Below, piece by piece: positions 24,972 through 38,623 of a stretch of 64,000 nucleotides of DNA. Origin of the DNA: Thalassospira xiamenensis M-5 = DSM 17429 (GTDB taxonomy: Bacteria; Pseudomonadota; Alphaproteobacteria; Rhodospirillales; Thalassospiraceae); contig NZ_CP004388.1 in assembly GCF_000300235.2 (NCBI RefSeq), positions 3,001,501 through 3,065,500 of the forward strand. Reading direction: 5' to 3'. The notes beneath the pieces were generated by a model. The model ran no database searches. It was given only the letters and a program-made list of their open reading frames with translations, and was not told the DNA's origin. Both the position numbers and the translations under genes were made by a program. Position 1 is the stretch's first letter. Every line of letters begins with the position of its first letter.

Positions 24972-25532
24972 TCAGGCTTTGGCGGTCGTTGCACCCGCTG
25001 CCGGTTTGGCCGTGGTTTTGCCGCCTTTGACAAATTCGGACGCCTTGCGTTTGCCGTCTTCGAATTCGTCCTTGAAACGACCCTTCATTTCATCGGCATC
25101 GAAATCGTCAACCGTTCCGCCCTTGGCAAAGTGCCAGGCAAAAACACGCCCCAGCGCGTAGGTGCAGGCACCAGCAAAGGTCGGCATTGCGACAACGCCA
25201 AAGATCGTGCCAACAACCGGAACCTTGCGAACCAGTGCCGCCGTTGCATAACCGACACCGGTCATCGGCAGGACCGTTGCAACCAGGGTCGAAATCGAAC
25301 TCTTGATCGCGTTCTCAGAGAACGGAACACCGTAGATGTCGCAAAGCTTTGCAAGCATCCGCACCTGAATCGTGCTGCTGGTGGCCATTTCAAGGAACGG
25401 GATCGGGACAAGACCACCAACCGCAGCATAAACGCTATGACGATGGATGCAGTCACGGGACTGGGCACGCATTTCATCCGCTTTCGCGACGGCCAGTTCT
25501 TCAGTCTCTTCGATGGTTTCTGCTTCGCTCAT
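24972..25532 (-). CDS. DUF697-like small membrane-associated protein (paralogue 1)
   Basis: 186 residues. I chose the start at 25532 rather than the first Met of the open frame because an AAGAGGCG ribosome site lies just upstream and the extra 31 residues look non-coding. The protein has an acidic N-terminus, hydrophobic segments around AVGGLVPIPFLEMATSS and VVGTIFGVVAMPTFAGACTY, and a charged, Ala/Lys-rich C-terminal tail. The pattern GLVPIPF...LAKLCDIYGVPF resembles the DUF697 family of bacterial inner-membrane proteins. The same motifs (VYGVPF, TYALGRVF, GGT-x-x-DFDA) occur in the product of 27311-27817, so the two are paralogues. It is the last gene of a leftward set with the SPFH gene. 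Function unknown. Confidence 0.75.
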   Translation of the reverse strand: MSEAETIEETEELAVAKADEMRAQSRDCIHRHSVYAAVGGLVPIPFLEMATSSTIQVRMLAKLCDIYGVPFSENAIKSSISTLVATVLPMTGVGYATAALVRKVPVVGTIFGVVAMPTFAGACTYALGRVFAWHFAKGGTVDDFDADEMKGRFKDEFEDGKRKASEFVKGGKTTAKPAAGATTAKA

Positions 25533-25633
25533 TATCGCCTCTTGAATTTGTACCTGTAAGTTGATGTCCTGCACGCAAAATCTATTCTTCAACTTTACCT
25601 GAACTAACCTGAAGTAGCAACGCACAACACCCT

Positions 25634-27010
25634 TTATTTGCTACCGGTTTTTGAAATTTCAGGCTGCCCCGCACTCTCATGTTTCGCGGCAGGTTCCATG
25701 TCGCTCTGTTTGACAACACCACCCCCGTCACCACTGGTCGGATCAAACAGCGGGGCAATCGATTTCAGAACATCACCAGCCGTTTTACCCGTCGTTGAAA
25801 CATCCTCTGACGCCCCCGCTGTCGGGGCTGTCGGCTTCATCGACGGTGTTACCGGCGGTGTGGCCGAATTTGCCGCACCGGGGCGCGCACGTTTGTCCGA
25901 CGGATCGACCGGGGCACGAACGCCCGGCGAAATCGCATTTTGCGGCGCGATTTCCTGCGACCGTGCATTAAGCGCCCCGGAATTCGGCAGGCTTTCCGCC
26001 GTATCGTTCACAAGCTCCGCCCCCGAATCTGAATCCGGGGAGCTGGCCGTCGGCGAATCTGCGGTATTGAGGATCACGGGCAGGCCATCTTTGCCACCAA
26101 TGATGATCGTCTTGCTGTTTTTCGATGTCGCAAGCGTCATGGTGGCTTCGATACCGCGCAGGCGAAGATATTCCTCGGTAATCGTTTTGGCGACGATATC
26201 CTGGAATTCCCGAATACCTTCCGCCTCGATCTTCTTGCGTTCCTTTTCCTTTTCCTCGCGCGCCAGACGGAAATCATATTCCAGCATGGCCTGATATTGT
26301 TCAGCCTTGCGTTCAATCGCATCCGCAACGCGTTCGGGCAGGATCACGGAACGGATCAGAACGTCTTCAACCGTCACCAGCCGCCCCTGAAAACTCTGAT
26401 TGACCAGTGATGATCCAAGCTCGTTGACCATCCGTTCAAGGATTTCGGCCTGAATGAAGGCACGGGTTTCGGTATAAAGCTGTTCAGGCGTGTAACGCGA
26501 AATCAGTTCACGCGCATGCGATCCGATTTCCGGATACACAAGGATTTCCGCATAATTCGGCCCGACAAGCTTGTGCAGCATCCCGACCGCTTCGCGATTG
26601 ATCCGATACCGCACCGCAATATCGACTTCCATCGACAGGCCGTTCGATGAAATGGTGTCATAAACCCGCGCCTGATTTTGCAGACGCGCGTCATAGATAT
26701 ACATTTCATCCCACGGGAAGATCATGTGAATGCCCTCCCCATAGCTTCTGTCAACCACCGTCCCGCCAAAGAACCGGTACCACATCACCGCCACATGCCC
26801 GGCAGGCACGGTAATGAAAATCTGCGGTGCCAACGCGAAAATCGCGATCAGCAAAAACAGAATCCCGATCAGAAATGTCGTGCGCAACCGCCGCAGGCGT
26901 TCCCCCGCGCTAATGAAAAAGCGCCGCCAAAAGATCGACCACCGCCCTCTTTTGCGGGCGGTTCCGTTTTGGTCTGGTGCACCGGGTGCGACTGTCGCGC
27001 TATCAACCAT
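25634..27010 (-). CDS. SPFH/band-7 (prohibitin-like) membrane protein
   Basis: 458 residues. A cytoplasmic basic N-terminus (1-43) precedes one membrane helix (about 44-65, TTFLIGILFLLIAIFALAP). A band-7/SPFH domain follows at about 66-250 (ITVPAGHVAVMWYRFFGG, FPWDEMYIYDARLQ, DIAVRYRIN). A charged coiled coil comes next (about 250-300, AREEKEKERKKIEAEG), then a long low-complexity Pro/Ser/Ala/Gly tail to the end. SPFH proteins form large membrane-microdomain scaffolds and often regulate partner membrane proteins or proteases. Unlike HflK/HflC, no protease gene is adjacent; the neighbours are two DUF697-like proteins and a 65-residue membrane protein on the same strand. It probably scaffolds that set, which is inference from context only. 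Confidence 0.85.
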   Translation of the reverse strand: MVDSATVAPGAPDQNGTARKRGRWSIFWRRFFISAGERLRRLRTTFLIGILFLLIAIFALAPQIFITVPAGHVAVMWYRFFGGTVVDRSYGEGIHMIFPWDEMYIYDARLQNQARVYDTISSNGLSMEVDIAVRYRINREAVGMLHKLVGPNYAEILVYPEIGSHARELISRYTPEQLYTETRAFIQAEILERMVNELGSSLVNQSFQGRLVTVEDVLIRSVILPERVADAIERKAEQYQAMLEYDFRLAREEKEKERKKIEAEGIREFQDIVAKTITEEYLRLRGIEATMTLATSKNSKTIIIGGKDGLPVILNTADSPTASSPDSDSGAELVNDTAESLPNSGALNARSQEIAPQNAISPGVRAPVDPSDKRARPGAANSATPPVTPSMKPTAPTAGASEDVSTTGKTAGDVLKSIAPLFDPTSGDGGGVVKQSDMEPAAKHESAGQPEISKTGSK

Positions 27011-27068
27011 TCATCATCTCGTCGTCGGATTTATCGTGACGCATGCTGATCGCCCGTCAGTCATCATC

Positions 27069-27266
27069 TTATTCATAATCAAGGTCTTTAAGCTTTTCAC
27101 GAAGCTCCCGCGACGGGCGCGCAACAATCTGAACCAGAAAATCACCAATCGGGGTAATCGCAATCGCCAGCAGGAAATGCCCCAGAAATCCGAACGACGT
27201 CCGGCGGCCAAGCATGCCGCAAACAATGCAGGCCAACAGATAAATTACAATCAAAATCAAATGCAT
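27069..27266 (-). CDS. Small two-helix membrane protein
   Basis: 65 residues with two predicted membrane segments (about 3-19, LILIVIYLLACIVCGML, and 26-48, FLGHFLLAIAITPIGDFLVQIVA) and a short charged tail. It lies between the SPFH gene (58 bases downstream) and a DUF697-like gene (44 bases upstream) on the same strand, consistent with one transcript. It resembles small membrane proteins that accompany channels or scaffolds, but I recognise no named family. Coding status is supported by the helix pattern and tight packing. Confidence 0.6.
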   Translation of the reverse strand: MHLILIVIYLLACIVCGMLGRRTSFGFLGHFLLAIAITPIGDFLVQIVARPSRELREKLKDLDYE

Positions 27267-27310
27267 CGTTTCGCCACCCGAATTCCTGTTATTGCGCGAT
27301 TACGCGTTCT

Positions 27311-27817
27311 TCACGCCGTTTTCTCGTCCTGATCGAATTTCAGGCCTTCCTTGAATTTCCGGCGAAAATCGGCCTCTGCCTTTTGGGCGTCAAAATCCGC
27401 CATCGTCCCGCCCGCGGCGTAATGCTGCTGAAAAACCCGACCAAGCGCATAGGTAAATGCCGCATTGAAACCTGGCATGGTCACGATGCTCAGTGTCGAT
27501 CCGACAACCGGCATCACCTTGGCAATATTGGAAAATATCCCCGTCCCCAAAAGAGCCCGCCCCAAAACGCCGCTGGTAATGCACGCGGTTAAGGCCGCAA
27601 TCACGGATTTGCCACTGCTTTTATTGAACGGAACACCGTAAACATCGCTCAGTTCCGCCAGCATTTTAAGCTGCACGGCAACCGTCGCTGCAGAATCGAG
27701 AACAGGAATCGGAACAAAACCGGTCCCCGCGGCCCAAAGGGCATTGCGTTGCACAACACCACTTGCAAGCCGGTGCTGTTTGCGCCGTTTCAGCACTTCA
27801 AGCGTTTCAGCCCCCAT
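27311..27817 (-). CDS. DUF697-like small membrane-associated protein (paralogue 2)
   Basis: 168 residues from the start at 27817, which has a GGGGGAC ribosome site; the longer frame to 27925 has no good start. The protein shares with the product of 24972-25532 the blocks GFVPIPVLDSAATVAVQLKMLAELSD (there GLVPIPFLEMATSSTI), VYGVPF, PVVGSTLSIVTMPGF and TYALGRVF-x-x-HYAAGGTMADFDA. It lacks the long basic tail of the paralogue. It is the first gene of the leftward four-gene set and is divergent from the sensor-MFS operon, with 206 bases between the start codons. Function unknown. Confidence 0.75.
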   Translation of the reverse strand: MGAETLEVLKRRKQHRLASGVVQRNALWAAGTGFVPIPVLDSAATVAVQLKMLAELSDVYGVPFNKSSGKSVIAALTACITSGVLGRALLGTGIFSNIAKVMPVVGSTLSIVTMPGFNAAFTYALGRVFQQHYAAGGTMADFDAQKAEADFRRKFKEGLKFDQDEKTA

Positions 27818-28023
27818 AACGTCCCCCGGTTTATTGTCCCGCGCCAAATCATAATCGCTAACTATCAGCACTGCAAACCGAATCAAGGTTTTATACAGCC
27901 TTGACCTCAACCCCGACGCAATCAACCATATGGTTTGTGAAAGCCGCTTTCTGAGGATATAACCGGCTTAACAGGATCATGTTTTGAAAATACTTTGAAA
28001 ATATATCTCGCCGGAGACACGTT

Positions 28024-28818
28024 TTGAAGCTGTCTACCAAGATCGGGCTGGCCCTTTTCCTCGTGCTTGCAAGCGCACTAAGCATGACCACGGCCCTGAA
28101 TTATCTGCGATTCGACCAGACCCTGCACACCCTTCTGGCCCAGCGCATGACCGTGATCCTCAATGAAACCAGTCAGGATGTCCTTGCCGGGATCGATCTG
28201 GGTTTGCGGCTGGAAAACATGGAAAATCTGCAATCGGTCCTGAACCGGCGTCTGGATATGGCCAACGATATCCGCAATGTCGCCGTTCTGGACTGCAACG
28301 GCACCCCAATCAGCAACGCCACCCGGTCCCCAGACAGCCCCCCGAATGATCAGGCGCTCGCTGGCGCGGCAATATCGCAACAGACACGTGATCATTGGAT
28401 CGATTTCACACCTGGAATCGCCACCGCCGGACAGGTCCTGCGCGACAGCCTTGGCCAATGCGCGGGTCTGGTCGTCATCACCGCAAACTCGCAGGCCTCC
28501 GAAGCCAAACTTGCCAATGCCTTCTCTGAAATGTGGAAATCGGCGGCCTTCGGCATGGGCATGATTGTGCCCATCCTTGGCGTCCTGTTCATTCTGATGC
28601 GCCGTCGCCATCGCGTTTTCGAAGAACTGCACGAAGATCTGGCGCGCGCTGTTGCGGGCAAGGCCCCCAATACCCGCCCCCATGATGGCGATGTCCTGAC
28701 CCAAAGCGAAATCGAACTGATTTCCCTGTACCGCGAAATCCGCGATCAGTTGCCCCACGACACCCAAGAGGACGGCACCGAACGCACATCGAAAACCCCG
28801 GCGGAGCCCCTGAAATGA
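28024..28818 (+). CDS. Membrane sensor-like protein without an output kinase
   Basis: 264 residues from a TTG start, with GGAG seven bases upstream. One N-terminal membrane helix (about 5-25) is followed by a periplasmic region of about 150 residues, a second helix (about 179-198, GMGMIVPILGVLFILM) and a hydrophilic cytoplasmic tail of about 65 residues. This is the topology of the sensory half of a histidine kinase or chemoreceptor, but no kinase, cyclase or receptor signalling domain follows. The next gene overlaps by ATGA and encodes a transporter with a similar sensory N-terminus, so the two probably act together in the membrane. I recognise no named family. Confidence 0.7.
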   Translation: MKLSTKIGLALFLVLASALSMTTALNYLRFDQTLHTLLAQRMTVILNETSQDVLAGIDLGLRLENMENLQSVLNRRLDMANDIRNVAVLDCNGTPISNATRSPDSPPNDQALAGAAISQQTRDHWIDFTPGIATAGQVLRDSLGQCAGLVVITANSQASEAKLANAFSEMWKSAAFGMGMIVPILGVLFILMRRRHRVFEELHEDLARAVAGKAPNTRPHDGDVLTQSEIELISLYREIRDQLPHDTQEDGTERTSKTPAEPLK

Positions 28819-30845
28819 CCCCCTCTGCCAATCCGAAAACCAAACCCGATACCCCCGCATCCCCTCATGGCGGCAATATCCGAAGCCGTCTTTTCCCCAA
28901 GGGCACGATCTGGATTCTGCTGCTGTTCAGCACGATCTCGCTTTGCATTGCCTTGGTCGGGATTTCTTGGCGGGCCGCCGAACTGGCGCGTGCTGATCTG
29001 CAAACCGAAATCCGCGAAAAGGCCGAAATCGAAGCCCGGGTTCTTGGCGAAAAAATCGAAAATGCCCTGCGGCTCGGCATTCCGCTCCGCGAGATTGTCG
29101 GCTTCGAAGCCGTCGTCTATCAGCTTCGCGATGGCGACCCCGATCTGGTTTTTGCCGCCATCACCGACATGGGGGGCGACATCCTGCATGCGGGCGGCCT
29201 GCCATCGGATGAAATCGCCACCGCCTTAACGGCCCCGTCGGGCAACGATACCGCCTATATCGTGACCCGCCTCAACCTGCCCCGCGCCGAAGAGCATGAC
29301 GATATCGAGGTGGTCCTTGGTCATGCCCGTGCCGCCCTGATGCGCCCGGTTACTGATAACCTTTATGACATTGCGATCATTTTCATCATAACCCTCGCCT
29401 TATCATTTGAACTGATGTTGCTGGTGTTAACCGTCAATGTCGCCCTGCCAGTAAGGGTTGCGCGCAAGGTTCTCGGCAATGTGCGCGACCGCAAATTCAC
29501 CCTGCTGCATGGCCAAAGCACCCATGACGAAATCGGCCAGTTCATGGAACGCATCAATTCCCTGATCAACACCACTGCCAAAAAGGTCGGCACACATCCC
29601 CAACGCGAACGGGAGGTAAAGCTGATCGGGGTTCGCATGCTGGCCTTCATGTTTGTCCTGGCCGAAGAACTGGCCCGTCCGATCATGCCGGCCTTCTTTA
29701 GCCAAGTGACATCCCACAGCATCGACGGGCAGCTTGGCGCAGGCGTGGTCATGGCGGTGCATCTTCTGATGGTTGCCCTTGCCATGCCGATCTGCAGCCT
29801 GTTTCAGGAACAGGTCGGGTCACTGCGCATGTATCTGTGTGGCGCATTTCTGGCGACACTTGGTCTGATCGGTACCGCCTTTGCCGTTGGCATCTGGGAT
29901 CTTGTACTGTGGCGCGCATTATCGGGGATCGGTTACGCCACCACCTTTGTCGCCTGTCAATCCTATGTCCTTGATGCCACCAATGACAGCAACCGCACAC
30001 AGGGAACCGCCATGATGGTCAGCGGCATCATGCTGGCTGATATCTGCGGCCCGGCGATTGGCGGGATTGTTGCTGGCCATTTCGGGCCGGACATGACCTT
30101 TATCGCCGGTGCGACCATTGCGTTTCTGGCCGTCCTTCTGGCCTTCTTCCTGATGGATAATATGGTGCGTGGCAAAACCCCACCGCCGGTCCCGACCAGG
30201 GCCGCCCTTCGTGCCATGCTCGGCAATCGCCGTTTGCAGGTGCTGATCCTGTTTGCCGCCATTCCCGCCAAACTGATCCTCAGCGGCTTTTTATATTACC
30301 TGACCCCGATGATCTTGCTGCAATCGGGTGCGACCACGGCTGAAACCGGGCGGGTGATCATGCTTTACGGGCTGGTCGCGATCCTGACCGGCTGGGCCGC
30401 GGCAAAATGGACCGACAAAAGCCAGAACGAAACCCGCGCGGTCGGCATTGGCGGTGGCTTGACCGCCGCCGGACTGTTGCTGGCGGGCTGGCTTCCCGAA
30501 TATGCCCTGTTTGCGGTTGCCGTCGCCTTGCTAGGCCTCGCACAGGCAACCTCAATCCCGGCACAGCTTTCCGCCAGCCTGAAACTCAGCAAGGATTTCA
30601 CCAAGGATCACGGCACCGGCCCGGTCCTTGCGGTCCTGCGTCTGGCAGAACGTCTGGGCGGGGCGGCAGGTCCGCTGCTGGCCGCCGGTCTGACCCTTCT
30701 GGTCGGAACAACGCAGGCCGTCCTGATTTTCGGGGTTTTTGCCGCCGTTTCGGTTCTGTGCTTTGAACTTCTGATCGGTCATGTGCCGCCAGAACAAAAG
30801 GGCGAACAAAAAAGCGAACAAAAAGCACAAGGAGGGACGAAATGA
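28815..30845 (+). CDS. Sensor-HAMP-MFS fusion transporter
   Basis: 676 residues. The N-terminus looks like a signalling receptor: helix about 31-52, periplasmic domain about 53-180, second helix about 184-208. A HAMP-like cytoplasmic linker follows at about 209-262 (LPVRVARKVLG, THDEIGQFMERINSLI). A complete major facilitator superfamily domain of about 12 helices then runs from about 275 to 655; its features include ALSGIGYATTFVACQSYVLD and, in the sixth segment region, DICGPAIGGIVAGHFGP. The fusion implies that periplasmic ligand binding or signalling gates a secondary transporter. Start overlaps the upstream stop by ATGA and its own stop overlaps a periplasmic binding protein gene in the same way, so all are translationally coupled. 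Substrate unknown. Confidence 0.8.
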   Translation: MTPSANPKTKPDTPASPHGGNIRSRLFPKGTIWILLLFSTISLCIALVGISWRAAELARADLQTEIREKAEIEARVLGEKIENALRLGIPLREIVGFEAVVYQLRDGDPDLVFAAITDMGGDILHAGGLPSDEIATALTAPSGNDTAYIVTRLNLPRAEEHDDIEVVLGHARAALMRPVTDNLYDIAIIFIITLALSFELMLLVLTVNVALPVRVARKVLGNVRDRKFTLLHGQSTHDEIGQFMERINSLINTTAKKVGTHPQREREVKLIGVRMLAFMFVLAEELARPIMPAFFSQVTSHSIDGQLGAGVVMAVHLLMVALAMPICSLFQEQVGSLRMYLCGAFLATLGLIGTAFAVGIWDLVLWRALSGIGYATTFVACQSYVLDATNDSNRTQGTAMMVSGIMLADICGPAIGGIVAGHFGPDMTFIAGATIAFLAVLLAFFLMDNMVRGKTPPPVPTRAALRAMLGNRRLQVLILFAAIPAKLILSGFLYYLTPMILLQSGATTAETGRVIMLYGLVAILTGWAAAKWTDKSQNETRAVGIGGGLTAAGLLLAGWLPEYALFAVAVALLGLAQATSIPAQLSASLKLSKDFTKDHGTGPVLAVLRLAERLGGAAGPLLAAGLTLLVGTTQAVLIFGVFAAVSVLCFELLIGHVPPEQKGEQKSEQKAQGGTK

Positions 30846-31867
30846 CATTCCCCCGTCCCCCGGCTTTTCGTCTGCTTGGCATTCTTGCGGTCTTGATCGT
30901 CGCACTCAGCGCGACGTTATTGCCAACGGCATATGCGCAATCATCAAAGGCCCCGCTTAAAATCGCCATGATCCTTTGGCGGGGTGAAACCAATGTCGAA
31001 CAGGGATTTCGCGCCTATTTCGACGAAAACAACATCCCCGTCGATCTGACCATTCATGACGTTGCGCGTGATCTGTCGCGCGTGCCCGCCATCATCGATC
31101 AGATCCGTAAAGACCCGCCCGATCTGGTTTACACATGGGGCACCGGGATCACATCTTCTGTCGTCGGCAAATATGATGCCGTCGATCCGGCGAAAAACAT
31201 CACCGATCTTCCGGTGGTCTATGTGATGGTTTCATCGCCGTGGAAAACCGGTATTGCCGCGCCGGCGGGCCAAAGCCGCCCCAATGTCACCGGGGCAACC
31301 CACATCGCCCCGCTTGCCGCCCAGATCAATGCCATCCGCGCCTATCGCCCGATGGATAAACTCGGCGTGGTCTATAACAGCCGCGAAGACAATTCCGTTT
31401 CCAACGTCGCCGATCTGACCGAACTGGGCCGCGAAATGGGGTTTGACGTTCTGGCCGCCCCCCTTGGCACCGACGACGAACCATCACCCGATGACATCGC
31501 CCCCGCCGTTGCCGAACTGGCACGCAAGGGGGCCGATATCCTGTATATCGGGCCGGATAACTTCATCGGCAATTATCGCGATACCCTGACCGATGCCGGT
31601 TTTGCCAACGGGCTTGCCGCCTTTAGCGCGACCGAACTTGAAGTCCGCGATGGTCACGCCATGCTGGGCCTTGTCAGCCGCTATGAACTTGTCGGCCGTC
31701 TCGCCGCCAGCAAGGTCGAACAAATTCTGATCGGTGGCATATCACCCGCCGATATCCCGGTCGAAACGCTTGACCGGTTTTCCTATCTGATCCGGCTGTC
31801 ATCGGCGCGCAAACTGAAACTCTATCCGCCGCTGTCGCTGCTGGATTACGCGGAGGTCATCGAATGA
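30842..31867 (+). CDS. ABC-type periplasmic substrate-binding protein (ABC_sub_bind/DUF534 family)
   Basis: 341 residues with an N-terminal hydrophobic signal segment (about 10-30, ending ATLLPTAYAQ). The mature part resembles the periplasmic binding family that includes TrpX-like proteins: KIAMILWRGETNVEQGF, a DLVYTWGTG block, PVVYVMVSSP, and GVVYNSREDNSVSNVADL in the hinge region. No ABC permease or ATPase gene is near; the partners by ATGA overlap are the kinase-less sensor and the sensor-HAMP-MFS fusion upstream and an acetyltransferase downstream. It may deliver a ligand to those periplasmic sensory domains rather than to an ABC importer, which is inference. Confidence 0.82.
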   Translation: MTFPRPPAFRLLGILAVLIVALSATLLPTAYAQSSKAPLKIAMILWRGETNVEQGFRAYFDENNIPVDLTIHDVARDLSRVPAIIDQIRKDPPDLVYTWGTGITSSVVGKYDAVDPAKNITDLPVVYVMVSSPWKTGIAAPAGQSRPNVTGATHIAPLAAQINAIRAYRPMDKLGVVYNSREDNSVSNVADLTELGREMGFDVLAAPLGTDDEPSPDDIAPAVAELARKGADILYIGPDNFIGNYRDTLTDAGFANGLAAFSATELEVRDGHAMLGLVSRYELVGRLAASKVEQILIGGISPADIPVETLDRFSYLIRLSSARKLKLYPPLSLLDYAEVIE

Positions 31868-32535
31868 CCCAACTGACCCGGCTTGATCCATCCCATCTTC
31901 CGGCTATCATCACCCTGCATCACAGGGTAATTGCGGACCTTCCGCCGGGCAATGCCGCCAGCGAAACCGATCAGTTCTTTGCCGATCATCTGGATGCCTG
32001 CGGGCAGATTTTTGGGGCCTTTGACGGGGACCGTCTGATGGCCTATTGCGTGCTGGGGTTACCGCGCGAAACCGATCCGAATTTCGGCACCGACCATCAC
32101 CTTCCCCCCGATCAGCTGGGCAAGGTCGCCCATATCGACGGGGTCGCGGTTGATCCGCAATGGCGCGGACAGGGGTGGCAACGCCGGATGGTCGAACACC
32201 GCATCGAAATCGCCCGGAAATGCGGGCGCACCATCGCGCTAAGCACCGTCGCCCCAACCAATTTCCCAAGCCTGATCAGCACGGTCTCAACCGGCCATGC
32301 CATTCATGGATTGATCGCGAAATTTGGCGGGAACCGTTTTCTGCTGCGCCGGGATATCGGCCCCGATCAGGATGCAAAATTCCCGTCCGCACCCGATCGC
32401 GCAATCTGGTGCGCCAGTGACGATCTTGCGACCTGCCGGAAATTGCTCGATGACGGGTTGATCGGCCTGTTTTGCCAATCATCACCCCATGGCACGGCAC
32501 CGCGCATCGGCTGGGTTCCGGCCATACCCGCTTAA
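31864..32535 (+). CDS. GNAT-family N-acetyltransferase
   Basis: 223 residues. The acetyl-CoA-binding motif of GNAT enzymes is seen as VDPQWRGQGWQRRMVEHRI at about 96-114, preceded by the beta-strand HIDGVAV. Start overlaps the binding-protein gene by ATGA, making this the last gene of a four-gene operon; it ends 9 bases from the convergent TAXI-receptor gene. The acceptor substrate cannot be told. Being coupled to a sensor-transporter set, it may modify the transported compound, for example as a detoxification step. Confidence 0.8.
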   Translation: MTQLTRLDPSHLPAIITLHHRVIADLPPGNAASETDQFFADHLDACGQIFGAFDGDRLMAYCVLGLPRETDPNFGTDHHLPPDQLGKVAHIDGVAVDPQWRGQGWQRRMVEHRIEIARKCGRTIALSTVAPTNFPSLISTVSTGHAIHGLIAKFGGNRFLLRRDIGPDQDAKFPSAPDRAIWCASDDLATCRKLLDDGLIGLFCQSSPHGTAPRIGWVPAIPA

Positions 32536-32544
32536 TAACGCGGC

Positions 32545-33810
32545 TTATTGCTGATAACTGTAATTCCACTTGCTCGGCCCTTTCGGGTCGGCCTGCTGAT
32601 AATAGGGTTGCCAGTCGCAGGCATGCGCATCGGTTTCCCAATAACATGCCGCCCCCTTATGGAACGGCAGGAAATTGCCCTTTTCATACATATCGTCGGC
32701 AACCACGCTTCGGAATGTCGGATACATTTCCTTCATCCGGTCGATATTTTCATGAACGATCCGCGTGATCCAGTACACCACATACGGATCGGCCGGTTCA
32801 TAGGCGATAAGGGATGCCTTGAACCCATAGGATGCAATCGCTTCTTCCTGCGCACTATATGTCTTTGCTGGCAAAACCTGATTAAAGAAATACTGGTTTG
32901 CCCGCACCATCTCATCGGTCAAGGGGCCGCCCATGCCGACAACCCGCGCCCCGCAGCCAAGCGTATCTTCAATCAGCGTCGCCGGATGCCCGATCCACAG
33001 ACCGAACGCATCAATATAATTCTCGCAGATGCCAAGTTCGTTATAATCCTGCGCAACATTGTAAACGGTATCAAGATCCTCAAGCGTGATATCGTACCGC
33101 GACAGAAGCTCAAGCCACAATTCCCGCGATGCCGACCCTTCCGGCCCGATATTGATGCGTTTGCCGCGCAGATCGCCAACCGATTCAATGCCGGAATCAT
33201 TGCGCACCACCAGCAACCCCATTTCATCATGCAGCGACATCACCGACCGCGCACCGGGGATCGGCGCAATGCCTTTCTGCGCCTCCCAGTTATTGTTCGA
33301 CTGCACAATGGCAAGCTGCACCCGTCCTTCCTTCATCAGACGGATATTGCTGCCGACACCCTGGGATCGCAACGGCACGCAATGCACGCGATGGCGCTCA
33401 AAGGTACGGCTCATCATCTCGCAAATCTGGGCTGCAACCTTGAAATACACGCCACTCGTGCTGCCGCTGTAAATCGCCGCGTAATAGGATCGTTCGGTCT
33501 GGCCATCACCGGCAATCACATCGGTGTTGCTCAACACCGCCAGACTTTCCGGGTCGGTTGTCCGGCGACGATATTGCGACAACGGAATGGCATCGGGCTT
33601 GTAAATCAGGCCATCAATCAGGTCCGGGTTGGATTTTGCCGGGTCGATGATTGCATCGTCATATGTGTCGACATCGATATCAGGCAGGACGTCAACCGGC
33701 GACATATCGGCACTTGCATCCTCGGCAACGGTGCCACTTTGCTGCGCATACGCACCCGCCGCCCCCGCCGACAGCAGAACTGCCAGCATACCGGTCGCAA
33801 TCATTCTCAT
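32545..33810 (-). CDS. TAXI-family TRAP solute receptor (orphan)
   Basis: 421 residues from the start at 33810, chosen because it places a normal signal peptide (MRMIATGMLAVLLSAG, cut near AYA) at the N-terminus; the open frame runs 63 bases further upstream. An acidic segment of about 85 residues (rich in Asp, Pro and Ser) precedes the receptor fold, which carries the TAXI hallmarks YSGSTSGVYFKVA and LRSQGVGSNIRLMKEGRVQLAIVQSN, then GKRINIGPEGSASR. TAXI receptors bind small carboxylates or similar solutes and hand them to a fused DctQM permease. No permease gene is present on either side, so the partner must be elsewhere or the protein is a sensor component. Confidence 0.85.
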   Translation of the reverse strand: MRMIATGMLAVLLSAGAAGAYAQQSGTVAEDASADMSPVDVLPDIDVDTYDDAIIDPAKSNPDLIDGLIYKPDAIPLSQYRRRTTDPESLAVLSNTDVIAGDGQTERSYYAAIYSGSTSGVYFKVAAQICEMMSRTFERHRVHCVPLRSQGVGSNIRLMKEGRVQLAIVQSNNNWEAQKGIAPIPGARSVMSLHDEMGLLVVRNDSGIESVGDLRGKRINIGPEGSASRELWLELLSRYDITLEDLDTVYNVAQDYNELGICENYIDAFGLWIGHPATLIEDTLGCGARVVGMGGPLTDEMVRANQYFFNQVLPAKTYSAQEEAIASYGFKASLIAYEPADPYVVYWITRIVHENIDRMKEMYPTFRSVVADDMYEKGNFLPFHKGAACYWETDAHACDWQPYYQQADPKGPSKWNYSYQQ

Positions 33811-33946
33811 GCCGATCTCAAAACGCAAAACCGTCCACTCATCGTTTGTGATGAACCAATCCTCGCATCCCAACGGCCATCCTAAAGGATCGCCCGGAAG
33901 CCCGTCGAGAGCGAAGATGAATTAATACCCTTATTCTCAGCGATTT

Positions 33947-35297: not shown

Positions 35298-36947
35298 ATG
35301 AAATTGCTCGAACTGTTGTCTTGGGGGGATAACAGACTGATGGCCCGGCTTGCCTTTGCCGGTGCGCTATCGGGTGCGGGCAGTGCGGTCCTGCTGGGTC
35401 TGGTCAATACCGCCGCCGAAGGCATTGCCGATAACGGTGTCGATCAGGTCGACTGGCTTCTGGCCGGCGGCTTCATCGCCCTTGCCGTGGTCTATTTCCT
35501 GGCCGAGGTTTTCCTTCTTGCCAACATCTCGACCCAGATCGAACAGGGCATCGACAAGGTCCGGCGAAAACTGCTGGGTCAGATCGCCCATGCCGACTTT
35601 TCCCGGCTAGAAACCTTTGGTCAGGCCCGCCTGTTTGACAGCATCACCCAAAGCACTCAGGTCATTTCGCAAAACTCGCACATGATCGGCATGTCGTTCC
35701 GATCCCTTCTGCTGGTCGTTGCGGTGATGATCTATGTCTTCTGGCTGTCCACGCTGGCCTTTTTCCTGATCGTGATGGTGATCGGGGCCGGAATTATCAT
35801 TTACCTGCAGATGGGCAAACAGCTCGGCATGTGGTTTGGCAAACTCCATCTCGCCGAAACCAGCCTGTTTGGCAAGGTCGCCGATCTGTTTTCGGGTATC
35901 CGCGAAGTTCGCATGTGGTCATCGCGCAGCAGCACCCTTTTCAATGCCTTTTCGGAAAACTCGCTGACAAAGGAACAGATAACGGCAGAAACCCACAGCC
36001 TGATGTTCCGTCAGATGATCATGGGCATGACCGCCTTTTATGTCCTGCTTGCGGTGATCGTCTTTATCGTGCCGGTCTATACCGATAATTTCGGCTCCAC
36101 GGTTTCCAAGGTCAGCACCGCCGTCCTGTTCATGATCGGCCCGATCAGCACCGTGGTGCAGGCAATGGCGGTTCTGGGGGCGGCCGAACAGGCCGCCGCG
36201 CGCATGGTAACCCTGTCACAGGATCTGGACGAAATTGCCGAACCGATTGACGAAAACGGCACAAAGCTGCCCGATACATTTTCAAACATCGCGTTTGATG
36301 ATGTTTGCTTTACCTATCCCAACCGCGACCCGCGCCACGGCTTTGTTCTTGGCCCGATCAGCCTTTCGGTAAAAAAGGGCGAACTGATTTTCATCACCGG
36401 CGGCAACGGGGCGGGCAAATCCACCCTGATCAAGCTTCTGACAGCCCTTTATCGCCCGGTATCGGGTGCCATCCGGTTTGACGATATCCAGCTTGGCGCG
36501 CAAAATATCGCGTCCTTCCGCGATAAAATCGCCACCGTGTTTTCCGATTTCCACCTGTTTTCCGAACTGCACGGATCGGCCGAAATTGCCCCCGAAGAAG
36601 CAGATTACTGGCTCAACCTGTTTGAACTGTCCCATGTGACGGGTATTCGCGACGGCAAATTTGTTTCCATCGCCCTGTCTGCCGGGCAACGCAAACGTCT
36701 TGGCCTGATCACCGCCATTCTCGAACATCGCCCGATCCTTGTTCTTGATGAATGGGCCGCTGATCAGGACCCCTATTTCCGTAAAAAATTCTATTACGAA
36801 ATCCTGCCACAGATCAAAGCACGCGGCATAACCATCATCGCGGTCACCCATGACGATCATTATTTCGATGCTGCCGACCGCCGCCTGCATCTCGAAGCCG
36901 GCACCCTGCACGAACTTGACCGCAACGACCCGCGTGGAAGGATCTGA
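35298..36947 (+). CDS. SyrD/PvdE-type cyclic peptide ABC exporter, half-transporter 1
   Basis: 549 residues. Membrane domain of about six helices (1-300), then an ATP-binding domain with Walker A GGNGAGKST (about 370-378), signature LSAGQRKRLGL, Walker B ILVLDEWAADQDP, and the switch His in VTHDD. The sequence DEWAADQDPYFRKKFYYE is typical of the cyclic-peptide exporter family (SyrD, PvdE), which move NRPS products or precursors across the inner membrane. The stop is followed after 2 bases by a second gene of the same family, so a heterodimer is likely. Candidate cargo is the lipopeptide made by the 0-24 kb genes. Before the start an 11-base tandem repeat (ACTGGACAGC units at 35204 and 35215) lies in the spacer. 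Confidence 0.9.
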   Translation: MKLLELLSWGDNRLMARLAFAGALSGAGSAVLLGLVNTAAEGIADNGVDQVDWLLAGGFIALAVVYFLAEVFLLANISTQIEQGIDKVRRKLLGQIAHADFSRLETFGQARLFDSITQSTQVISQNSHMIGMSFRSLLLVVAVMIYVFWLSTLAFFLIVMVIGAGIIIYLQMGKQLGMWFGKLHLAETSLFGKVADLFSGIREVRMWSSRSSTLFNAFSENSLTKEQITAETHSLMFRQMIMGMTAFYVLLAVIVFIVPVYTDNFGSTVSKVSTAVLFMIGPISTVVQAMAVLGAAEQAAARMVTLSQDLDEIAEPIDENGTKLPDTFSNIAFDDVCFTYPNRDPRHGFVLGPISLSVKKGELIFITGGNGAGKSTLIKLLTALYRPVSGAIRFDDIQLGAQNIASFRDKIATVFSDFHLFSELHGSAEIAPEEADYWLNLFELSHVTGIRDGKFVSIALSAGQRKRLGLITAILEHRPILVLDEWAADQDPYFRKKFYYEILPQIKARGITIIAVTHDDHYFDAADRRLHLEAGTLHELDRNDPRGRI

Positions 36948-36949
36948 TC

Positions 36950-38623
36950 ATGCTGCTTGTTGATCTTCTGCGATCCCGAACCCGCATCGATCTGCGCCAT
37001 GCCGTGGGCCTGCTGTCACTGGCATCGATTGCCACCACCATGGTGCTGATCATCGTCAATCTGGCCGCCGAACAGGCCGAAGACGGTGTGGCCAGCATGC
37101 GCTATCTCGGCATGATGGCGCTGTCGCTGATCGGCTATATCTGGGCCCAGAAAAAATCCAGCGACATGATCGCCGCCGAGGTGGAACACATCCTCCATCA
37201 ACTCCGCCTCAGCCTGTTTGATCGCGTGCGAAAAGCCGCCCCCGATACGCTGGCCAAGGTCGGACAGGGTGCGGTTCAAACCGCCCTCACCCAGGAAATG
37301 CAAACCGTATCGGCCGCCCTGCCCCTGATGCTGAATGGTGTGCAGCAGGTGGTCCTGATCATCTGTGTCGCGGCCTATCTCGCATGGCTGTCGACCTTCG
37401 CCTTCGTGATGATTTCCGTTCTGGCCGTTGTGGTTTCAACCATCCATCTGCAACGCATGCGCAAAATCAACGCCGCCACCCGTGACGCGATTGACGATGA
37501 AAACCTGCTTTTTGGCGGCCTGACCGATCTGTTGCATGGCTTCAAGGAAGTCAAAATGAACAGTCGGCGTCGCGACGCGCTGCTCGGCGCACTCAATGAC
37601 CGCTCCATCCGGGCACGCGACACCAAATCCGTGGTCAAGGCCCAATGGTCGCGCGAATTCGCCCTGATCCAGCTGGCCTTCTACGGGATGATGGCGGCAA
37701 TGGTATTCATCGTTCCGATCTTCACATCGGATTATCATGACGTTGCCGTGCAAACCACGACCGCGGCCCTGTTCATGATCGGCCCGATCGGGGCTGTGGT
37801 TGCCTCTGTCCCCAGCTTCACCGATTCCGATGTGGCGCTCCGCAAGATCAACGATATCGATCACCAGCTCGAAGACGCCCTTGACGCCCAACATGCGAAC
37901 GAGGCCGCGAACGGCACGTCATCGCCCGAAACCCTTGATAAATTGCGCGGTGCACTTGGCAATATCGCCGAAATCAGCCTGCGCGACGTTCGTTTCGCCT
38001 ATCCCGGAACGACGGATAGCCCCGGCTTTGCCGTCGGTCCGATCAATGCCACCTTCAAAAAGGGTGAAATCACCTTTATCACCGGCGGCAATGGCGCAGG
38101 CAAATCGACGATCATCGCCGTCCTGACCGGCCTTCGCCCGGCGGCAGGTGGTTCGATCATGGTCAATGATTGCCCGCTCCCTTCCGACGCCTTGCAGCTT
38201 TATCGCGATCATTTCGCGACTGTCCTCTCGGACTATCATCTGTTTCGCGAACTTTACGGCATTGATGAGATCGACCCGAAACGGGTTGAAACGCTGCTCA
38301 AACAGATGGAAATCGATGACAAGGTCGAAATTGATGACAACGCCTTTTCAACGACATCGCTGTCACAGGGGCAACGCAAACGCCTTGCCCTGATCGCGGC
38401 CCTGCTCGAAGAAAAGCCGGTTCTTGTCCTTGATGAATGGGCCGCCGATCAGGACCCGCATTTCCGCTTGGTCTTCTATGAAAAAATCCTGCCATCCTTA
38501 CGCAAACAGGGCAAGATCATCATCTGTGTCACCCATGATGACCGCTGGTTTGACGCGGCCGATACGATCTATCACGTCCGCGACGGCGAATTTGTCGACG
38601 GGCGCAAAACCATTACCGCCTGA
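36950..38623 (+). CDS. SyrD/PvdE-type cyclic peptide ABC exporter, half-transporter 2
   Basis: 557 residues, same architecture as its upstream neighbour: six-helix membrane domain then ATP-binding domain with GGNGAGKST, LSQGQRKRLAL, VLVLDEWAADQDP and VTHDDRWFD. All catalytic motifs are intact in both proteins, so neither is a degenerate partner. It starts two bases after the first gene, which implies coupled translation and a heterodimer. It ends 4 bases from the convergent type II thioesterase gene. The family is known for exporting or maturing nonribosomal peptides; the cargo here is inferred from context. Confidence 0.9.
   Translation: MLLVDLLRSRTRIDLRHAVGLLSLASIATTMVLIIVNLAAEQAEDGVASMRYLGMMALSLIGYIWAQKKSSDMIAAEVEHILHQLRLSLFDRVRKAAPDTLAKVGQGAVQTALTQEMQTVSAALPLMLNGVQQVVLIICVAAYLAWLSTFAFVMISVLAVVVSTIHLQRMRKINAATRDAIDDENLLFGGLTDLLHGFKEVKMNSRRRDALLGALNDRSIRARDTKSVVKAQWSREFALIQLAFYGMMAAMVFIVPIFTSDYHDVAVQTTTAALFMIGPIGAVVASVPSFTDSDVALRKINDIDHQLEDALDAQHANEAANGTSSPETLDKLRGALGNIAEISLRDVRFAYPGTTDSPGFAVGPINATFKKGEITFITGGNGAGKSTIIAVLTGLRPAAGGSIMVNDCPLPSDALQLYRDHFATVLSDYHLFRELYGIDEIDPKRVETLLKQMEIDDKVEIDDNAFSTTSLSQGQRKRLALIAALLEEKPVLVLDEWAADQDPHFRLVFYEKILPSLRKQGKIIICVTHDDRWFDAADTIYHVRDGEFVDGRKTITA

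Follow-up and report, generated by a model that had tools for sequence, protein, structure and literature searches.

In Escherichia coli the secondary transporter DctA and the sensor DcuS, which carries a periplasmic domain, work as one unit (PMC8307970, PMC4280142). A comparable union of sensor and transporter is encoded by a cassette of four genes at positions 28024 to 32535 of the DNA analyzed here, a stretch of 64,000 nucleotides from Thalassospira xiamenensis M-5 = DSM 17429 (contig NZ_CP004388.1, positions 3,001,501 to 3,065,500; in the following called the window). Its core encodes three proteins: S1, a sensor without an output domain; the sensor-MFS protein, in which a sensor and a HAMP-like segment precede a transporter of the major facilitator superfamily (MFS); and a periplasmic solute-binding protein (SBP). 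From sequence comparison we see about an even chance that this core would be a receptor with a transporter as its output domain, fed by the SBP, in which the HAMP segment gates the MFS. In the DctA/DcuS system the transporter and the kinase that it modulates are two distinct polypeptides, whereas in the window sensor, HAMP and transporter follow each other in one chain, the cassette contains no kinase and the SBP is a constant component. DctA/DcuS is the nearest functional analogue, with information passing there from the transporter to the kinase. A further likeness is found to receptors activated by SBPs, which are an accepted class. Binding to receptor domains is described for SBPs from at least 13 families, and in these systems, as here, the gene of a free SBP stands next to that of a receptor with a periplasmic part; the receptor types named in the available part of the source are chemoreceptors, kinases and cyclases or phosphodiesterases, with no transporter among them (PMC9602780). 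In contrast, the cassette has an MFS output, and docking of its SBP is putative.

Transporter folds acting as receptors are known from UhpC/UhpT and from yeast Snf3/Rgt2, where degenerate copies stand beside active ones. We know of no sCache-HAMP fusion and no SBP in these systems, which are similar to the cassette in that a transporter fold may serve as a receptor and differ from it in those two features. The SiaABC system consists of a SpoIIE/PP2C phosphatase, a kinase and a STAS-like protein, and to our knowledge carries neither an MFS nor an SBP. The phosphatase of one related locus (L055) matches the SiaA model (1.6e-22) and is found with HATPase_c_2 and STAS genes, in likeness to SiaABC (PMC7647112). 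It reaches 79.8 bits, well under the SiaA cut-off of 700 bits, and the likeness is confined to the phosphatase arm. No description of a HAMP-MFS or sensor-MFS fusion system was found in the open PMC literature, subscription papers lying outside the search.

The four genes are located on the forward strand and form an operon in which all three junctions are ATGA overlaps. S1 (28024 to 28818; 264 amino acids, TTG start) consists of a transmembrane helix (residues 7-25), a periplasmic domain that is probably sCache-like, a second helix (174-192) and a short cytoplasmic tail; a Pfam scan of the window S1 gave no significant match. The sensor-MFS protein (28815 to 30845; 676 amino acids) comprises a helix at residues 32-50, a probably sCache-like domain, a second helix (TM2, 186-204), a HAMP-like segment at residues 207-264 (nucleotides 29433 to 29606 of the forward strand), located with a model built without window-type rows, and from about residue 270 an MFS domain with 12 helices, which Pfam recognizes as MFS_1 at residues 276-591 (7e-37). 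The SBP (30842 to 31867; 341 amino acids) belongs to the TrpX-like superfamily PF04392 (ABC_sub_bind, 2.9e-20) and has a hydrophobic N-terminus that by eye resembles a signal peptide. The fourth gene (31864 to 32535; 223 amino acids) encodes an acetyltransferase of the GNAT type (Acetyltransf_1, 8.9e-10), which is an optional partner. A GGAG or AGGAGG is visible by eye shortly 5' of every start codon. Comparison with two relatives gave ratios of nonsynonymous to synonymous substitutions (dN/dS) of 0.05-0.23 across all four genes, which therefore look real and under purifying selection. The original prediction, made from the letters of this DNA alone, had described four genes joined by ATGA overlaps, an MFS protein with a sensor front end, a first protein with the same topology but no output domain, and a binding protein without an ABC permease; these features were found again in our analysis, the absence of a permease for the cassette.

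Distant relatives were retrieved without S1 or SBP, by matches to the MFS protein or to the sensor model only; this model extends to the first MFS helix. The resulting 39 loci come from the class of the window and from other classes of the phylum, and two of them (L060 and L075) represent a distant version of the cassette in Thalassospira. Excluded were a locus without sensor (L069), seven loci without an MFS on the sensor protein (L126-L129, L132, L134 and L135), a fragment at a contig end (G407) and the weaker genomes from G721 down; separate counts were made for the plasmid loci L090-L092 and for the 14 Thalassospira loci of the window type. Partners were counted using local models, and several of the stretches are cut by contig ends, so that absences are weak evidence. 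S1 is encoded separately on the same strand and at most 311 bases from the MFS gene in 30 of the 39 loci and is fused to the MFS in the other nine. The SBP is present in all 39 loci; in 35 it lies on the same strand within 160 bases of the MFS gene, and in the remaining four at a distance of 0.8-1.8 kb, either with S1 in between (L060, L075) or in divergent orientation about 1.8 kb away (L067, L068). In L070 the SBP gene is cut by the contig end. The conservation of the neighbouring genes, which had been proposed as a check, was thus confirmed in 39 of 39 distant loci, and the SBP is a constant partner of the sensor-MFS protein. Chance overlap of the genes was also considered and rejected, as the arrangement is kept in all 39 loci. 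The fused chains (L130, L131, L133, L157, L158 and L162-L165) are about 730-960 amino acids long and contain the helix pair of S1, then that of the sensor, and then the MFS. On a tree of 44 MFS rows the fused state requires four changes, all four being forced by the starred branches; L164 and L166 form long branches of unsure placement. Repeated fusion, as seen here for the neighbours S1 and MFS, is a classic indication of joint action in a single complex.

Closer relatives show the same picture. Window-type MFS proteins (at least 65% identity) occur in 15 of 29 Thalassospira genomes, the window genome included, and the distant version in two more; the window MFS is 83-97% identical to the MFS of the named Thalassospira loci. 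All 14 neighbour stretches of the window type contain genes for DUF697, S1, MFS, SBP, GNAT, TAXI, lyase and ABC proteins together (in L085 with an additional DUF697-like gene and the ABC genes turned), and ten of them contain a nonribosomal peptide synthetase (NRPS). The plasmid loci of Azospirillum brasilense Sp7 (L092) and Vibrio sp. THAF190c (L090) have the orders S1-MFS-SBP-GNAT-ATP-grasp and S1-MFS-SBP, respectively.

The assignment of the HAMP-like segment is based on the protein family. Nine of the 21 aligned sensor-MFS members, which include the negative window protein, match PF00672 with E values no higher than 0.05, the best being 1.4e-10; sCache_3_2 is matched by seven of the aligned rows. 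Models derived from the other 15 rows, none of them of the window type, find residues 207-264 of the window protein with the HAMP part (E 2.9e-6) and residues 33-204 with the sensor part (E 1.4e-24), these E values referring to a nominal database size of 1000 and to columns of an alignment in which the window protein was present. Among 200 shuffles the lowest E values were 3.2 and 3.5, respectively. The window-type rows were matched in six of six cases, with E values of 4e-9 to 2.1e-4 for HAMP. Because relatives match HAMP and a model without window-type rows finds residues 207-264, homology of this segment to HAMP is supported, and as judged by these profiles a HAMP of the window sensor-MFS is present at the family level. 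Glutamate E199 in TM2 is invariant in 21 of 21 aligned rows. No match to an sCache-type profile was obtained with the window S1 or the window sensor-MFS protein. A search of the PDB with the sensor profile yielded the histidine kinase 9trk (5e-5) and the HAMP structure 4gn0 (0.0028), both as weak support and the latter amid chance coiled-coil matches. Most of the 60 rows shown were influenza haemagglutinin HA2 chains with E values of 2e-4 and weaker, which were rejected as coiled-coil chance matches to the helical HAMP/linker stretch. HAMP domains pass on the signal of the sensor that precedes them to the domain that follows; as this domain is here the MFS, we read the MFS as the output.

Among 18 S1 proteins sCache_3_2 was matched by two and dCache_1 by four. 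A structure model of S1 based on an alignment of five rows was poor (pLDDT 49.6) and showed, at low confidence, the order of helices and strands of sCache-type domains. The S1 profile matched a designed membrane protein in the PDB at 9e-6, all other matches having E values of 0.24 or weaker, some of them to Cache-type sensors. A matching periplasmic domain without output, sometimes fused to its partner, is most simply understood as the second half of a paired sensor.

Family-averaged hydropathy of the sensor-MFS protein revealed 15 peaks, namely the two sensor helices, one shoulder at residues 202-220 straight behind TM2, and 12 peaks from residue 277. The helix count is accordingly 12, and not the lower number which the original prediction had named as speaking against it. 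The MFS_1 match and the 12 helices agree with a DHA1-like antiporter. E285, D534, R609, E612 and R613 are kept in all 21 aligned MFS rows, including the window. The closest solved MFS structures are VMAT2, NorA and EmrB, which we take to be antiporters, and this suggests antiport and favours export. The MFS is DHA1-like and probably proton-coupled, and export is judged the more likely direction of transport.

With the TrpX model NF041285 the SBP scored 87.2 bits against a cut-off of 390, so that it is assigned to the PF04392 superfamily and not to this equivalog. No ABC permease or ATPase for the SBP is present in the cassette, the rest of the window and genome not having been searched for a permease, and the ABC pair encoded near the cassette is of the exporter type TIGR01194. 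An ABC importer was rejected as a description of the cassette, which has neither permease nor ATPase. SBPs of the PF04392 superfamily are also encoded next to sCache-HAMP histidine kinases, and the sensors of these kinases fit the sensor model used here (L126, L127, L132 and L129; the kinases were identified by Pfam in the first three and by a local model in L129, and PF04392 by Pfam for L127 only). As the SBP is a constant part without a permease in the cassette and related SBPs stand beside kinases, the natural interpretation is that it would be presented to the sensor. The sCache_3_2-HAMP hybrid histidine kinases beside an SBP gene in L126, L127 and L132 may in themselves form a family of SBP-activated kinases.

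The closest solved SBPs are 6hni, 3lkv and 3lft, which presumably bind aromatic amino acids. GNAT genes of the window type are found in 13 of the 39 distant loci, alanine racemase genes in three and ATP-grasp ligase genes in four; of the latter, those of L066 (DdaF-like) and L067 (D-Ala ligase-like) remain under the cut-offs of the respective models. The lyase of the window passes one of three diaminopropionate ammonia-lyase models. The substrates of these optional neighbours are amino acids or small peptides. It is reasonable, though only as a guess, to expect a ligand that resembles an amino acid. In L067 (3521-6664) and L068 (9771-12912) two D-Ala-D-Ala-ligase-like genes are located; the unit with S1 and the divergent unit with the SBP contain one each.

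The proposed mechanism would run as follows. The SBP would bind a small ligand in the periplasm, and the loaded SBP would dock on the sCache-like domains which S1 and sensor-MFS pair with each other. With S1 as the second protomer of the sensor, a two-protomer sensor could be carried by one MFS; the MFS fold normally works as a monomer. The signal would pass via TM2 with its invariant E199 and the HAMP-like segment to the MFS, which would be shifted between conformations, and transport would be opened or closed. In many genomes the same sensing state would also feed a SpoIIE phosphatase or a cyclase. The window form of Thalassospira has no such arm nearby and is set in a region of nonribosomal-peptide genes.

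These signalling neighbours form the basis of an alternative which we consider rather unlikely, namely that the MFS is mainly a receptor (a transceptor), that binding or transport of its cargo, together with the SBP-fed sensor, sets the activity of SpoIIE or cyclase and hence a STAS/anti-sigma switch, and that window-type loci are cut down or signal in trans. Phosphatases or cyclases of the dCache-HAMP type were detected by local models in 17 of the 39 loci (15 with SpoIIE, and L062 and L066 with a cyclase), and Pfam confirmed SpoIIE in L054 and L060 and the cyclase in L062. Anti-sigma-type HATPase_c_2 occurs in 11 loci (local models, seven checked with Pfam), and a STAS gene adjoins the module in six (G217, G305, G170, G109, G180 and G334; not in G331) of nine genomes, all chosen for SpoIIE beside the module. 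S1, MFS and SpoIIE are adjacent in this order in L060 and L075, and L061 has the order S1-MFS-SBP-SpoIIE. Moreover, seven loci contain a second pair, S1'-MFS', directly 5' of the SpoIIE or cyclase gene (L062:10098-14947, L066:226-5063, L065:9312-14252, L064:10211-14624, L059:698-5450, L133:1539-6428 and L165:4637-9457). In the five aligned MFS' copies, which are degenerate, D534 and E612 are changed in all (to Asp at 612 in two), R609 and R613 are lost in four, and E285 is lost in three. In genomes with SpoIIE or cyclase the module would also, or mainly, serve for signalling, a side of it that was out of view of the original prediction. However, neither enzyme was seen in the stretch fetched for 22 of the 39 loci, several of which are cut by contig ends. 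No SpoIIE phosphatase was found near the window cassette (HATPase and STAS were not searched there); the only one of this genome is about 1.87 Mb away and resembles the module phosphatases over the catalytic part only. HAMP signalling is also normally directed toward the C-terminal domain, which is here the MFS. In the remaining two of the nine genomes tested for STAS, the two Thalassospira genomes with the distant version, a STAS gene lies about 30 kb from the SpoIIE-bearing cassette (G007:C11:36390-36698 and G008:C6:180571-180882). A protein with TPR-S and guanylate cyclase is encoded near the cassette of L055 (8629-10782).

With SpoIIE so often a neighbour, signalling suggests itself as another possible main role, and it may be the older or main one; together with the following points these neighbours weigh against a transporter gated by its sensor. 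The HAMP of the original prediction stands for the family and not for the protein alone: PF00672 was absent over its cut-off from the window sensor-MFS in the Pfam scan, the segment being too diverged for Pfam by itself, and a genome-wide HAMP search found 41 places, none of them at this cassette. Alignment of the window-type HAMP rows with eight HAMPs of the same genome by hhalign was in register and weak (probability 4.8%, E 0.0083). A HAMP was not detected in any of 18 S1 proteins at E up to 0.5, which makes a HAMP heterodimer hypothetical. Of seven matches of the sensor model without an MFS on the same protein, four have an SBP gene beside them (L126, L127, L129 and L132) and three do not (L128, which is contig-cut, L134 and L135). 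The AlphaFold model of the MFS, from a shallow alignment of five rows, was unusable (pLDDT 33.3). Motif A, which is defined in MFS proteins and lies between helices 2 and 3, appears by eye degenerate in the window clade, with its acid lost, and is kept in several other rows. Finally, MFS relatives without a sensor exist (L069 and L091), and L069 is near two weak SBP matches. The loss of motif A, the diverged HAMP of the window clade and these sensor-less relatives would fit a transporter of the ordinary kind, for export or import, whose N-terminal sensor is vestigial. S1 and SBP would then act elsewhere, for instance together with a kinase or an ABC permease that is not linked to the cassette. 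We regard this as improbable, since the triad is kept in 39 of 39 loci with fusions in nine, the four genes are under purifying selection and E199 is invariant. Even less credit is given to a window MFS that is dead for transport and whose only role in a receptor is to anchor it in the membrane or to mediate oligomerisation: degenerate copies do exist and the motif A acid is lost, but the window protein retains E285, D534, R609, E612 and R613, which are mostly lost in these copies, and the dN/dS of its MFS is low.

Some observations concern the surroundings of the cassette and of its relatives. The regions 120-24102 and 35298-38623 of the window contain open reading frames of 1630, 5190 and 1173 amino acids, of which only the last was read and looks NRPS-like by eye. 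They also contain a phosphopantetheinyl-transferase-like gene that scores far under its cut-off, and genes for two ABC proteins of cyclic-peptide export, each of which passes the cut-off of TIGR01194. An SPFH/Band_7 protein is encoded between two DUF697 proteins at 24972-27925. In L071, a locus of another family, the cassette is surrounded by relatives of this DUF697/SPFH trio and by TAXI, lyase and ABC genes; tblastn detected no relative of two open reading frames of the window NRPS region within 19 kb on either side. At 32545-33873 of the window an orphan SBP of the TAXI type, over its cut-off, is convergent with the cassette. A TAXI gene overlaps the cassette SBP gene in L058, and from this overlap two SBP types may serve one module. 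The sensor-less MFS of L069 lies near its two SBP matches without any sensor, and that of L091 (6548-8254, on a plasmid of Azospirillum lipoferum 4B) is located beside FeoA/FeoB and MntR. A link to iron, hinted at by this FeoAB neighbour and the NRPS region, was dropped, as no other support was seen and no further search was made.

With somewhat less confidence than for the gated transporter itself, we tentatively propose a new transmembrane class consisting of SBP-fed sCache/HAMP receptors with a secondary transporter as output, in which S1 would complete a heterodimer round a single MFS, and in which duplicated MFS' copies without the transport residues would have become receptors driving SpoIIE or cyclase. 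If this is true, HAMP relays, which are known for enzymes and chemoreceptors, would control the state of a secondary transporter as well, and SBPs without an ABC permease would gain a new class of partner. The MFS proteins which kept their residues and the MFS' copies which lost them beside SpoIIE or cyclase would then represent a natural series from transporter to receptor.

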